Source: Flavobacteriales bacterium (GTDB taxonomy: Bacteria > Bacteroidota > Bacteroidia > Flavobacteriales_D > Sanyastnellaceae). Taken from it: a stretch of DNA of 35,690 nt. The stretch spans positions 1 through 35,690 of the forward strand of contig PKEB01000008.1 of the NCBI GenBank assembly GCA_002863125.1. Direction: 5' to 3'. The notes below the pieces were generated by a model that saw only the letters and a list, made by a program, of their open reading frames with translations, was not told where the DNA came from and did not search any database. A program made the translations under genes and the position numbers. This document shows positions 16,359 through 20,505 of the stretch, piece after piece; the stretch's first letter is position 1, and each line of letters starts with the position of its first letter.

Positions 16359-16375
16359 GGTTAAAGAAACGTTAC
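16359..16375 (-). promoter_or_regulatory. Partial Pho-box-like pair upstream of the T9SS-sorted protein gene
   Basis: On the minus strand GTAACG (16370-16375) is followed with exact 11-base spacing by TTAACC (16359-16364). These resemble two degenerate units of the array at 17457-17506. A near -7 element CAATTTTG (one mismatch to TAnnTTTG) follows at 16309-16316. With only two units, chance is possible. Confidence 0.35.
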
Positions 16376-16385
16376 GCGGTGAGCT

Positions 16386-17399
16386 TCATTCGACAGGAAC
16401 CAATTCTGGAGTGGGTACTTCAATCGGTGGCGTTTCGAGGGTGCCGTCACCGTCTTGGTCCGTGCCGTAGTGGATGGCGAGGACGATGGACACGCTGACC
16501 AAGAGTCCCACGATCAACTTCAAGAAGTCTTTGGCCACAATGGGGAAGACGGACTTGAGGTTGCCCTTTTTGGTCAGGCCCGTGTTCAATGCCAACTCAC
16601 GCCCACACAACAAGCCTACGAACACCCACGTGGTCGACATGGGAATGTTGTTCAATTCCTTAAAGTATAGGAGGAGGAACGCGTAACCGAGGTCGATGAG
16701 GGTGGCTGAGCGCACGTACTTGGTGCTTTGCTTGTCCATGACAATTTGCTGAATCGCGCCGCCCTGCTTGTAAAAAATGTAGGCGAGTCCGGCCACAAAG
16801 AAGGCAATCACGGTGACCAACTGAACCACGGTCAACTGACGCGGCAGGAACACCGCGATGTTGGCGACGTCGTGGGAGAGCCAGGTGTGCCAGAGGAACG
16901 ACGTGCTCATCCATTGGAACACGCGCCAGAATTTCTTGGAGCCTTGGCTGACGTCTTCTTTTTCGTTCACAAACCGCGAAATGATGAGCCAGAGCACGTA
17001 CGCCACGATGGCTGCAAGCCCGTAGCCCATGATGCTCTTCATGAGCATCTTTTCGAGAACGAACGTGGAGGCAAAAGCTGACAGAACGAGGAACGACGTG
17101 GAGACCGGGATGCCACGGCGCGTCAACAAAACGAGCGCCAGGGGAGCCACGGCGTGGTACCACTGGGGTTCGATGTACGGGATCTTGGTCAATCGCCCGT
17201 AGGAGATGTCTCCATTGCCGGAGTACCAGCCGTATACGATGGTGAAAATCAAAACCGTGGAAGCTGCTGCCCACAGCGTGGTCCACTTGAATTTTTCGCG
17301 GTTGGAGGCGATCCAAGTGCCAAGGGTTTGGACGCTGTCGTTCGCGATAACGGAGAAACCGGCAAGGGTGAATCCGACGATGGTAAAGAGTTCAGTCAT
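16386..17399 (-). CDS. Inorganic phosphate transporter, PiT family
   Basis: Polytopic membrane protein of 337 residues, somewhat short for the family. PiT proteins carry a repeated GANDVAN-type signature; here a first copy is visible as IANDSVQTLGTW (residues 19-30) and a second, degenerate copy as LSHDVANIAVFLPR near the middle, each followed by hydrophobic helices. A hydrophilic stretch around ISRFVNEKEDVSQGSKKF separates the halves, and the C-terminus is acidic and Pro-rich. The expected role is cation-coupled uptake of inorganic phosphate. I chose ATG 17399; a TTG three codons upstream is less likely. A five-unit 11-bp-phased array lies 57 bases upstream, matching PhoB/PhoP-type control. 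The family call is good; substrate specificity is inferred. Confidence 0.82.
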   Translation of the reverse strand: MTELFTIVGFTLAGFSVIANDSVQTLGTWIASNREKFKWTTLWAAASTVLIFTIVYGWYSGNGDISYGRLTKIPYIEPQWYHAVAPLALVLLTRRGIPVSTSFLVLSAFASTFVLEKMLMKSIMGYGLAAIVAYVLWLIISRFVNEKEDVSQGSKKFWRVFQWMSTSFLWHTWLSHDVANIAVFLPRQLTVVQLVTVIAFFVAGLAYIFYKQGGAIQQIVMDKQSTKYVRSATLIDLGYAFLLLYFKELNNIPMSTTWVFVGLLCGRELALNTGLTKKGNLKSVFPIVAKDFLKLIVGLLVSVSIVLAIHYGTDQDGDGTLETPPIEVPTPELVPVE

Positions 17400-17456
17400 G
17401 CCAAGCAATCGTGATACAAAAGTCCCTTTTGAACCATGATTTCTGAGGAACCCCCA

Positions 17457-17506
17457 TGTTATCCCTGTGTTAAATCGGTTAACACCGGGTTAACATTTGC
17501 GTAACA
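17457..17506 (-). promoter_or_regulatory. Five-unit 11-bp-phased Pho-box-like array upstream of the PiT gene
   Basis: On the plus strand the six-base units TGTTAT (17457), TGTTAA (17468), TTAACA (17479), TTAACA (17490) and GTAACA (17501) start exactly 11 bases apart with five-base spacers. Three point one way and two the other. PhoB/PhoP-type response regulators bind 11-bp-phased direct repeats (TTAACA-N5 in Bacillus, TGTCA-N6 in E. coli), so this is a strong candidate operator for the phosphate transporter gene and perhaps the whole cluster. A near -7 element GACTTTTG (17417-17424) lies between the array and the start codon. Confidence 0.7.
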
Positions 17507-17524: not shown

Positions 17525-17555
17525 AAAAAAAGGGCGGTCTTCGGATCGCCCTTTT
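17525..17555 (-). terminator. Intrinsic terminator of secDF
   Basis: AAAAGGGCGGTC, loop TTCG, GATCGCCCTTTT forms a twelve-pair stem with one G-U pair and a UUCG-type loop. In the minus direction it is followed by a run of Ts. It begins about 20 bases after the secDF stop and separates secDF from the regulatory array of the phosphate cluster. Confidence 0.85.
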
Positions 17556-17574
17556 CAAATTCGTTGTTGAAGTG

Positions 17575-20505
17575 TTACGCCTTCAACTCCTTGCTCAAGT
17601 CCAATACACTTGGTGTCGCAATGAAGATGGAGCTGTACGTACCGACGACCACACCGACCATCAAGGCGAATACAAAGCCTTTGATGTTGTCGCCTCCGAA
17701 GAGGAAGATGGTCAACAATACCACGAACGTCGAGAGCGAGGTGTTGATGGTACGGCTCAACGTGCTGTTGAGGGCGTCGTTCATCACCTCCTTGTCGTCG
17801 CGCTTTGAACCGTACAGGCCGACGTACTCACGGATGCGGTCAAACACAACCACCGTATCGTTGATGGAGTAACCGATGACCGTCAGGATTGCTGCGATGA
17901 ACGCCTGGTCGATTTCCATGGTAAACGGCAGGATGCCGGAAAAGATGCTGAAGCAGCTCAACACAATCACCACGTCGTGCACCATCGCGATCAACGCGCC
18001 GAGGCCGTACTGCCACTTGCGGAATCGGAAGAAGATGTACAAGAAGATGATGATCAAGGAGAAGATCGTCGCGTTCTGTGCGCCGTTGCGGAAGTCATCC
18101 GAAATGGTGCTGTCCACCTTGTTGTATTGGTCGATGGTGTAATCCACGCCTGCAACTGCCAGCCCCTCCTCGAGTGCCGCCTGGATCATCTCGTCCTGGT
18201 TGGCATCTGGGTTGTCGATCATGTAGTTGGTCATGATGCGGAGTTTCGCATCGCTGTCCTTGGTCTGTACAATGGGGTTGCCCACCTTGCCTTCTTCGGT
18301 GAAGGCCGTGGCCAGCGACTCACGGATTTGCTGCACGTCGACCTCCTGGTCAAACGTGATGTCAAATGTGGTACCGCCAGAGAACTCAACGCCGTACTGC
18401 AAGCCTTTCGTCATCAAGCTGCCCAATCCACCAACGACCAACAGGCCGCTCAGGATGTAGAACTTGGTGCGGTTGCCGACGAAATTGGCGTTGATCTTGG
18501 TGAACCAATTTTTCGTGAGTTCAGAAGAGAAGCTGATGGCTTTCTTGTTTTCCAATCGGCTGAAGAACACGAGGCGCGTCAGCACGATGGCCGAGAACAG
18601 CGAAGTGAAAATACCGATGATCAACGTCGTTGCGAATCCGCGGATGGCGCCGCTACCAAAGCTGTACAGAACGAACGCCGTCAACAACGTGGTGATGTTG
18701 GCGTCGATGATCGCGCTGTAGGCTTTCTGGTATCCGTCCTTCAATGCCACCATCAGGCCTTTGCCGCCGCGCATTTCTTCGCGGATGCGCTCGTAGATGA
18801 GTACGTTGGCGTCAACCGCCATACCGATGGTCAAGACAATACCTGCAATGCCCGGCAGCGTCAACGCTGCACCCAACGAGGCGAGGGCACCAATCAAGAA
18901 GAAGAGGTTGGCAATCAACGCGAGGTTGGATACCAAGCCAGCTCCCTTGTAGTAGAAAATCATGTAGAGCAGGATCACCAACAAGGCGATCACGAACGAG
19001 CTCAAACCCGATTGGATGTTCTCTTCACCCAATTGCGGTCCCACGCTCACCTCGTCCACGATGCGCGCCGGGGCGGGCAGTGAACCGGCCTTCAAGAGAC
19101 CGGCGAGGTCGTTGGCTTCGAGCATTTTCTGCTCAATGCTTTGGTCTGAACCGAAGCTGATTTGCGATCGTCCGCTGGTGATGGCTGTTTGTACGCTTGG
19201 CGCACTGAAGACCAGTCCGTCCAGCACGACGGCTACTGCACGCTGGTTGTCCGCTGCGCATTCTGTGGTCATGCGGCCCCAAATGCCAGCGCCTTCCGAA
19301 TCCATGGTCATGGAGACGACCACGTCACCGATCTCGTCGTACGAGACGCGTGCGTCGACAATGCTCTTGCCTGAAAGCTTCGCCTTGCCTTTGCGGCTGT
19401 CGTCGCGAATCGCGTACAACGCAGCGAAGTTCTGGTTGGGCTTGGCCTCCCACAACAAGCGCAAATCGTTGCGCAAGGCGAGGCGCGCCTCCGGGCGACG
19501 CAACAAGTCATTCACGCGGTTGGTATCCGCGATGGCTGCATAGCCCACAACTGCTGAGCGGCGCTGCAATTCCGGCTGCAAGTAGCGGAACAATGGAATC
19601 TTGGCAACCTTCTGCTCATCGGTCAAAACGCTGTCCGCAGGGGCGGAAGAGCCGTAGAGCTCAGGGTTGTTGGCCGTGGCGATCGCCGTGTTGGCTGCGT
19701 CGAGGCGCTGGATCACTTCGTCGTTGAAGAAGGTCTCCCAGAACTCGAGGTTGGCCGTGCTCTTCAACTGCTTGCGTGCTCGCTCGCGGTCATCGATGCC
19801 CGGCAGCTCGACCAAGATACGCCCGCCGCTGACCTTTTGAACGTTCGGCTGTGCCACGCCCAACTGGTCGATACGCTTGCGGATGATGCTTTCGGTGTTG
19901 TCAATCGCCGTGGTGCTCTCGTTGCTGAGAATGGCGAAGATTTCGTCTTCCGTGGATTGCGCAGGGAACAGGTCCTTGCTTTCCATGTTGTGGAAGATGC
20001 GCCACAGTTCAACTGGATTATCTGATGCGCCGTTCAACTCCTTCCAAGCGGATTCAAACAGCTCGACGTAGGTCAAACCTTGGGTTGAACGCTGGGCGTC
20101 CTTCGCTTGTGCGATGGCCTGGCGGAAGGTTTCGTTGCTGGAGTAATCGCTCAACGCGATGATGAGGTCCGGGATGCTCACCTCCAACGTGACCGACATG
20201 CCACCTTGCAAGTCCAAGCCCAGGTTCAATTCCTGTTCAATGACCTCGCGGTAGGTGTGGCCCAACATTGGGTAGATTTCCGCGTTGGCGCTGTCGCGCA
20301 AGAACTCACGCGCGGCCTGTGCCTGCGTGGTTTCCCAATCGTCTTCAGTGATTTCTCCGGTGCTTTCGAGCGAGTCCGCTACGAAGGCTCCATAGTTGGC
20401 TGCTTCCTCCTCGTAATTGTTCGCCACCCAGTTGAAACTGAGGGTGTAAAGTGTCGCGAGCGACAACAGAACGGTGAAGAGCAGAACTGCATTCTTGTTT
20501 TGCAT
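17575..20505 (-). CDS. secDF: Protein translocase subunit SecDF (fused SecD and SecF)
   Basis: Inner-membrane Sec accessory protein of 976 residues that uses the proton gradient to pull proteins across the membrane. SecD and SecF are fused in one chain, as is usual in Bacteroidota. The SecD half has the first helix (residues 6-26), the conserved LGLDLQGGMSV after a periplasmic insert, the large P1 domain with LVELPGIDDRERA, and the membrane block with AGIVLTIGMAVDANVLIYERIREE. The SecF half begins near GNRTKFYILSG, has GVEFSGGTTFDI and ends with IGYSINDTVVVFDRIRE. Its own -7 element lies at 20531-20538 and a strong terminator follows. The neighbouring DUF4159 gene is divergent. The identification is very secure. 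Confidence 0.98.
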   Translation of the reverse strand: MQNKNAVLLFTVLLSLATLYTLSFNWVANNYEEEAANYGAFVADSLESTGEITEDDWETTQAQAAREFLRDSANAEIYPMLGHTYREVIEQELNLGLDLQGGMSVTLEVSIPDLIIALSDYSSNETFRQAIAQAKDAQRSTQGLTYVELFESAWKELNGASDNPVELWRIFHNMESKDLFPAQSTEDEIFAILSNESTTAIDNTESIIRKRIDQLGVAQPNVQKVSGGRILVELPGIDDRERARKQLKSTANLEFWETFFNDEVIQRLDAANTAIATANNPELYGSSAPADSVLTDEQKVAKIPLFRYLQPELQRRSAVVGYAAIADTNRVNDLLRRPEARLALRNDLRLLWEAKPNQNFAALYAIRDDSRKGKAKLSGKSIVDARVSYDEIGDVVVSMTMDSEGAGIWGRMTTECAADNQRAVAVVLDGLVFSAPSVQTAITSGRSQISFGSDQSIEQKMLEANDLAGLLKAGSLPAPARIVDEVSVGPQLGEENIQSGLSSFVIALLVILLYMIFYYKGAGLVSNLALIANLFFLIGALASLGAALTLPGIAGIVLTIGMAVDANVLIYERIREEMRGGKGLMVALKDGYQKAYSAIIDANITTLLTAFVLYSFGSGAIRGFATTLIIGIFTSLFSAIVLTRLVFFSRLENKKAISFSSELTKNWFTKINANFVGNRTKFYILSGLLVVGGLGSLMTKGLQYGVEFSGGTTFDITFDQEVDVQQIRESLATAFTEEGKVGNPIVQTKDSDAKLRIMTNYMIDNPDANQDEMIQAALEEGLAVAGVDYTIDQYNKVDSTISDDFRNGAQNATIFSLIIIFLYIFFRFRKWQYGLGALIAMVHDVVIVLSCFSIFSGILPFTMEIDQAFIAAILTVIGYSINDTVVVFDRIREYVGLYGSKRDDKEVMNDALNSTLSRTINTSLSTFVVLLTIFLFGGDNIKGFVFALMVGVVVGTYSSIFIATPSVLDLSKELKA

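Follow-up and report, generated by a model that had tools for sequence, protein, structure and literature searches.

Gene content of the locus and layout of the array

The window, by which we mean the whole stretch of 35,690 nucleotides analysed here, comes from the genome of a Flavobacteriales bacterium (G000). Near its centre lies a gene for a PiT-like phosphate transporter, followed by genes for a secreted protein and a TonB-dependent receptor and preceded by secDF, all on the same strand (Table 1). The gap between secDF and the transporter gene holds five six-base units whose starts (17457, 17468, 17479, 17490 and 17501) keep a period of exactly 11 bp and whose spacers are all five bases long. 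Two of the units face one way and three face the other. On the gene strand the array reads TGTTAC-N5-TGTTAA-N5-TGTTAA-N5-TTAACA-N5-ATAACA, after which 57 nt lead to the ATG at 17399. On re-reading, the five units, the phase and the spacers at 17457-17506 are exactly as the preliminary description of this DNA had given them. Its placement of the array between the secDF terminator and a PiT gene is likewise borne out, with a PiT assignment that is weak by Pfam. Upstream, secDF runs on the same strand and terminates in a stable hairpin (17527-17556, absent from the list returned by a simple terminator scan), so no divergent gene shares the array.

Table 1. Features of the locus, in order of position within the window
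Feature	Position	Strand	Basis or remark
TonB-dependent receptor, 1056 aa	11383..14553	-	stays near PiT in G010 and G013
Secreted T9SS-sorted protein, 549 aa	14635..16284	-	family scan
Degenerate second pair GTAACG-TTTCT-TTAACC, in the gap after PiT	16359..16375	-	sequence inspection
PiT-like phosphate transporter gene, 337 aa	16386..17399	-	PF01384, E 5.8e-4, below curated cut-off
Presumed promoter/leader of the PiT-like gene, contains GGGACTTTTG	17400..17456	-	alignment of promoters and inference
Gene-proximal pair TTAACA-CAGGG-ATAACA	17457..17473	-	57 nt before the PiT-like ATG; kept in close orthologues
Unit TGTTAT	17457-17462	read on +	direct reading
Unit TGTTAA	17468-17473	read on +	direct reading
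Three distal units TTAACA, TTAACA, GTAACA, opposite-facing, same 11-bp phase	17479..17506	+	among 26 promoters: G000, G005, G013
Unit TTAACA	17479-17484	+	direct reading
Unit TTAACA	17490-17495	+	direct reading
Unit GTAACA	17501-17506	+	direct reading
secDF terminator hairpin	17527..17556	-	fold of 37-nt stretch: -15.1 kcal/mol, z -4.3
secDF, upstream neighbour, same strand as PiT	17575..20505	-	family scan

The transporter is a diverged member of its family. Its product scores 19.4 bits against PF01384, below the Pfam gathering score of 33.7, and an orthologue that stands beside phoBR and a Porin_O_P gene likewise falls short of 33.7 (25.3 bits, E 8.9e-6). Close relatives share 75-96% identity and come from the same genus or family, the named assemblies among them being Flavobacteriales, Crocinitomicaceae and Bacteroidetes ones; from the isolate names, these Flavobacteriales would be marine. 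Homologues at 63-65% identity occur in SAR11 and other Alphaproteobacteria (L206-L273), which suggests that the gene may have been transferred between phyla. The phased pair was not seen by eye in three upstream stretches of SAR11 homologues, and no phosphate genes were found among the four neighbours scanned at one SAR11 locus.

Within the leader of the PiT-like gene, GGGACTTTTG resembles the Bacteroidota -7 element and is presumably a candidate for it. The degenerate pair that follows the PiT-like gene, GTAACG-N5-TTAACC, has counterparts at the corresponding place in all three further genomes inspected (G005, G010 and G013). A structure model of the 549-aa neighbour was discarded for its mean pLDDT of 35.

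The array stands out from its surroundings. When units were scored by a five-base core (TAACA or TGTTA) with zero mismatches, the window contained one five-unit array, and 40 dinucleotide shuffles of the window yielded a single two-unit array and none with at least three units. Throughout the genome of origin, TTAACA-N5-TTAACA with at most one mismatch matched three times, each time within the array. At two mismatches or fewer the same search returned 53 matches versus 115 for a reversed-pattern control.

Conservation upstream of PiT orthologues

Conservation was assessed in 26 PiT upstream regions from 22 genomes (21 from a genus and family search and five from named public contigs), some of them nearly identical; five distant PiT genes and fragments with no usable start were excluded. 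A pair oriented with the gene (TTAACA-N5-RTAACA) was present at a period of 11 in 25 of the 26 regions at no fewer than 9 of its 10 core bases, and exactly in 17, counts that are non-independent because the orthologues are related. Its distance to the start was 56-102 nt. Thirteen other periods in the range of 9-22 bp gave between 0 and 7 regions, and 300 letter-shuffled motifs gave a mean of 0.41 and a maximum of 10. Across the 26 promoters, information reached 1.79 and 1.52 bits per base in the two units, compared with 0.53 in the spacer and 0.22-0.28 in the flanks; in this alignment, row G014b was placed on an alternative site. Four further close orthologues (G144, G100, G152 and G098) all scored 9 or 10 out of 10, two of them looking identical to L201 and L203. 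PiT-like genes occur in two or three copies in G001, G007 and G014 (one G001 copy is cut by a contig end), and every copy is preceded, 58-61 or 101-102 nt before its start, by the pair with 9 or 10 of the 10 core bases intact.

The preliminary description had named a lack of conservation upstream of orthologous PiT genes as one of two outcomes that would count against it, and the pair is kept there. As for its suggestion that the three-plus-two layout could serve as a Pho-box template for the clade, the gene-proximal pair is conserved as a template would be, but the full five-unit layout occurs in 3 of the 26 promoters (G000, G005 and G013), all from close species. Judging from this distribution, the direct pair therefore seems to be the older part, and the triple that faces the other way seems to have been gained recently.

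It follows naturally to ask whether the functional part could be the gene-proximal pair alone, with the three distal units a neutral and recent local addition, a reading that is compatible with a Pho box. Full arrays are lacking from 23 of the 26 promoters, and the PiT proteins of the two other five-unit species are 96% identical to that of the window. Against neutrality, none of the 25 core columns varies among the three species, while variation is seen in the spacers (7 of 20 columns, compared with 3 of 30 unit columns), in what is a small sample. We consider neutrality of the distal units unlikely, at perhaps one chance in a few.

Beyond the close relatives, the box as a general feature of PiT homologues was rejected, being mostly absent. 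Among 17 distant homologues (G022 PiT counted once, and seven more with no locus left out), two (G030 and G120) reached 9/10 in gene orientation and none was exact; antisense pairs were exact in G066 and at 9/10 in G044 and G056. Similarly, a large regulon, judged by genome-wide excess of the exact pair, was not seen: the 22 genus genomes held 37 exact pairs versus 53 for the reversed pattern, with 21 of the 37 at PiT starts.

Phased units at the regulator genes

Searches for a relaxed triple (THACA-N6-THACA-N6-THACA) covered 25 genomes. The 16 from the genus gave nine matches and a control count of 0; the nine order-level genomes gave 0 matches and a control count of 3. Three of the nine genus matches lie at PiT, and five lie at a phoB-like gene, 45-53 nt ahead of the point where the model match of the best PhoB-scoring regulator begins. 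The remaining one, at a contig end in the window's own genome (G000:C18:52368-52394), follows the gene that precedes phoB in relatives, and the 3' part of phoB in that genome, together with phoR, forms the end of another contig (L147, G000:C1). We infer that the contig-end box is the 5' flank of a split phoB-like gene.

Of 14 phoB genes in the genus, 10 were preceded by a relaxed pair in gene orientation, against a mean of 0.05 and a maximum of 1 in shuffles, so that the box precedes the regulator's own gene, as is usual, if not universal, for Pho boxes. The unit words at this gene are phased and of TTYACA type. At the level of the order, 4 of 9 phoB genes had an exact pair, gene-oriented in G027 and G029 and antisense in G026 and G031. 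Among the 30 best-scoring PhoB-like loci from 148 genomes of the phylum, the exact pair was present at one, and a phylum-wide box at these genes was rejected on this count.

In six relatives, regulator, kinase, box and transporter stand together in the order phoB-phoR-box-PiT. In G009 the box is the pair and PiT is followed by a phosphate-selective porin gene, while in L201-L205 the pair and PiT are followed by an SBF symporter gene; phoB, phoR and the SBF gene of L202-L205 were confirmed by tblastn. This gene of the sodium/bile-acid-symporter family, assigned by Pfam in L201 and L204 and by tblastn in the others, occupies the position directly after PiT that a porin or T9SS gene takes elsewhere.

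The seven box-linked regulators that were scanned, including that of the window's own genome, scored 187-219 bits against TIGR02154 (cut-off 296.2) and 186-218 against NF053854 (cut-off 270). These values lie below the curated NCBIfam cut-offs for PhoB, and the two models were still the best two. The product of the adjacent kinase gene is a candidate PhoR-type partner, its best models being PnpS at 247-249 bits (cut-off 400) and phoR_proteo at 219-227 (cut-off 334.2) for three kinases. In the DNA-binding domain, the regulator has a stretch nearly identical to that of E. coli PhoB (DRTIDVHIRKLR, close to DRTVDVHIRRLR of the latter). This stretch, which we take to be the recognition helix, is widely kept in these regulators.

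The pair at NptA genes

PhoU-domain matches in 13 relatives outside the genus led to genes for a Na/Pi cotransporter (NptA), an identity that is supported by PF02690 in all 10 genomes scanned (G025 and G035 excluded) and also in G022. Upstream regions could be compared in 12 of the 13 genomes, G035 being excluded because its contig starts nine bases upstream of the gene. In these order-level relatives, a pair in gene orientation that matched no fewer than 9 of 10 core bases preceded NptA in 11 of 12 cases, four of them exact, and an antisense pair in 1 of 12; shuffled controls gave a mean of 0.4 and a maximum of 3. Other genes at the same loci had a gene-oriented pair in 4 of 49 cases and an antisense pair in 7 of 49 (Fisher p 3.6e-8 for the gene-oriented comparison). 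In five genomes the pair lies 57-63 nt from the NptA start, the distance seen at many PiT genes. The box is thus found at phosphate-acquisition genes beyond one locus, namely at PiT and at NptA. Since both the gene family and the genomes differ from the starting case, the NptA result is, among the genomic comparisons made here, the strongest independent argument for a predicted Pho box.

Relation to known systems

The word and spacing recall the Bacillus subtilis PhoP box, which consists of TT(A/C/T)ACA repeats with spacers of about 5 bp. The third base of that word, T or C, also appears in the units at phoB here, in another phylum. In E. coli, the Pho box is laid out the opposite way from the conserved pair described here, as follows from the gene strand reading TTAACA.

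The cited papers are drawn on below as excerpts. Classically, a Pho box is two 11-nt direct repeats with letters that depend on the species, and in E. coli such head-to-tail 11-nt units precede phosphate genes (PMC4415409, excerpt). The array likewise contains two or more direct repeats that recur every 11 nt. The E. coli unit CTGTCAT is not found in it, the words here being TGTTAA/TTAACA; because the consensus varies by species, CTGTCAT does not define a Pho box outside E. coli (PMC4415409, excerpt). The cyanobacterial SphR box also has an 11-bp period, made up of tandem 8-bp direct repeats and a 3-bp linker, and its sequence CTTAACCT contains TTAAC; flanking letters and phylum differ (PMC1906773, excerpt).

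Within the order Flavobacteriales, a parallel is PhoP of Riemerella anatipestifer, for which DAP-seq gave TTTAACA as the most conserved letters and which binds its own operon and the dnaG promoter in vitro (PMC9603813, excerpt). PhoPR of this species reportedly goes up when phosphate is scarce, and PhoP binds many non-phosphate promoters, with a motif that the authors liken to ArcA (PMC9603813, excerpt). The two systems share the order and the core word, a likeness of motif, and they differ in that the excerpt of PMC9603813 describes neither a phosphate box nor an 11-bp array. Deletion of Riemerella PhoPR raised pstS (PMC5399024, excerpt), a result that does not fit simple activation. The preliminary description had held that Pho boxes are poorly described in Bacteroidota. 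In view of the Riemerella data (PMC9603813, excerpt) the core word is not new, but the titles and abstract openings of the literature searched announce no defined Pho box for Flavobacteriales.

Other members of the phylum offer context for the regulator genes. The phoBR operon of Flavobacterium johnsoniae holds genes for OprP and a TonB-dependent receptor beside phoB and phoR, a likeness to the loci described here; no Pho box is described in the excerpt of that paper (PMC8115612). Upon phosphate depletion in that species, PhoB, the receptor and extracellular LTD-domain nucleases went up, while OprP and PhoR had no significant induction (PMC8115612, excerpt). Gel shifts show PhoB of B. fragilis binding to the pstC promoter, with no box defined in the excerpt (PMC3547664), and Pho boxes have been predicted in plcP clusters of marine heterotrophs (PMC4796936, excerpt).

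A predicted Pho box

Because the word pair recurs at the regulator gene and at other phosphate transporters in relatives, the array is very probably the site of a phosphate-starvation regulator. Our preferred reading, to which we assign a probability of about 86%, is that the array is a Pho box, a set of head-to-tail sites through which a PhoB-like regulator would activate the PiT-like gene under phosphate limitation. The preliminary description had already attributed the array to a PhoB/PhoP-type regulator, an attribution that genome comparison supports through the boxes at PiT (25/26), phoB-like and NptA genes and the phoB-phoR-PiT order in six relatives.

On this model, phosphate limitation would lead the PhoR-like kinase, whose gene is present, to phosphorylate the PhoB-like response regulator. 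The regulator would bind TTAACA-type units 11 bp apart, head-to-tail and on one face of the helix, with the gene-proximal pair as the conserved operator. Once bound, it would be expected to activate, rather than repress, the PiT-like gene, whose promoter would lie within the 57 nt that separate box and ATG. The role of the three distal units, which face the other way, is probably to recruit more copies of the regulator and to strengthen or tune the response. Furthermore, the same PhoB-like regulator would bind the phased TTYACA-type units at its own gene.

The element would be a Pho box of a known kind, in a lineage for which the titles and abstract openings searched announce none. Three species add an unusual extension of mixed orientation, and the setting appears to be free of Pst and PhoU. 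If so, the element provides a testable template for Flavobacteriales (TTHACA-N5-DTHACA, gene-oriented and mostly 35-150 nt upstream of the start). It would also tie the Riemerella DAP-seq motif to phosphate transport and predict which transporters are phosphate-regulated.

An argument can be made that the array binds another OmpR-family regulator, ArcA-like or WalR/YycF-like, that uses the same 11-bp half-site and counts phosphate genes as part of its regulon. WalR and ArcA sites are 11-bp direct repeats of similar words, and YycF and MtrA models score close behind PhoB for our regulators. The Riemerella motif was matched to ArcA, and the binding of Riemerella PhoP to the dnaG promoter (PMC9603813, excerpt) has a counterpart in a TTAACA-N5-GTCACA site at the dnaG/histidine-kinase gap of G000. 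Nevertheless, the nine triple matches of the genus are confined to the phoB-like gene and PiT, phosphate transport is the family function of both NptA and PiT, the PhoB model scores best for all seven box-linked regulators scanned, and the three partner kinases scanned are PnpS/PhoR-like. We regard control by another OmpR-family protein as improbable.

A symmetric repressor might instead recognise the array's central inverted repeat, TGTTAA-N5-TTAACA, with the 11-bp phase being incidental. Read on the gene strand, two adjacent units are indeed inverted copies of each other, and TGTTAACA is palindromic by itself. Yet the inverted junction is limited to three close species, the other promoters conserve a direct repeat, and this direct repeat recurs at phoB-like and NptA genes, which leaves a symmetric repressor with very little likelihood. 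Chance repetition, which the lower G+C of the gap (46%, compared with 57% for the window) might be thought to favour, has a negligible probability and is excluded by the shuffles, the search of the genome's own sequence and conservation among orthologues.

Phosphate sensing

Matches to PhoU and to PstC were each found in 0 of the 22 genus genomes (G000-G021), some of which are incomplete assemblies; in control genomes PhoU was found in 13 of 14 and PstC in 14 of 14. With neither protein matched in the genus, the usual signal path to PhoR would be missing. The genus genomes inspected have phoB- and phoR-like genes despite these zero counts. Tentatively, and at less than even odds, we suggest that the genus runs a minimal Pho regulon devoid of PhoU and PstC, in which the box, by the patterns used, stands mainly at PiT and phoB and PhoR senses phosphate independently of Pst-PhoU, perhaps via PiT. 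As part of the same suggestion, the triple of the three species would give a mixed-orientation operator on one face of the helix, where two oppositely directed regulator assemblies might be loaded. Our findings point to PhoBR control in genomes with no PhoU or PstC matches, and thereby offer a new angle on how PhoR senses phosphate.

Other occurrences of the word pair

The relaxed pair had six matches in the window's own genome versus four for the control. Three of these sites are in the array, one is in the phoB flank, one is in the dnaG/histidine-kinase gap and one is intragenic. The dnaG site, TTAACA-AATCG-GTCACA, lies at L036:1501-1517 (G000:C1:48899-48915), between divergent dnaG and histidine-kinase genes.

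A triple TAACA pattern was matched in 11 of 150 genomes of the order, eight of them besides G000, G013 and G022. In six of these eight, the neighbours scanned were a tRNA ligase and an integrase; an M50 peptidase; a signal peptidase; SUFU and a T9SS protein; rpiB; and, at one site, genes of no family. Because these six neighbourhoods held ordinary genes, single matches in AT-rich genomes are not evidence for a box. In G022, which belongs to the same family as the window's genome, three phased TTAACA units (L101:11360-11387) lie antisense to the gene for a 1403-aa lamin-tail-domain protein. Finally, an identical antisense pair, TTAACAACTCATTAACA, occurs at L108:1738-1754 (G008) and L109:5172-5188 (G011), in both cases upstream of homologous genes for large secreted-type proteins, which in G011 belong to the Sortilin/BNR families.
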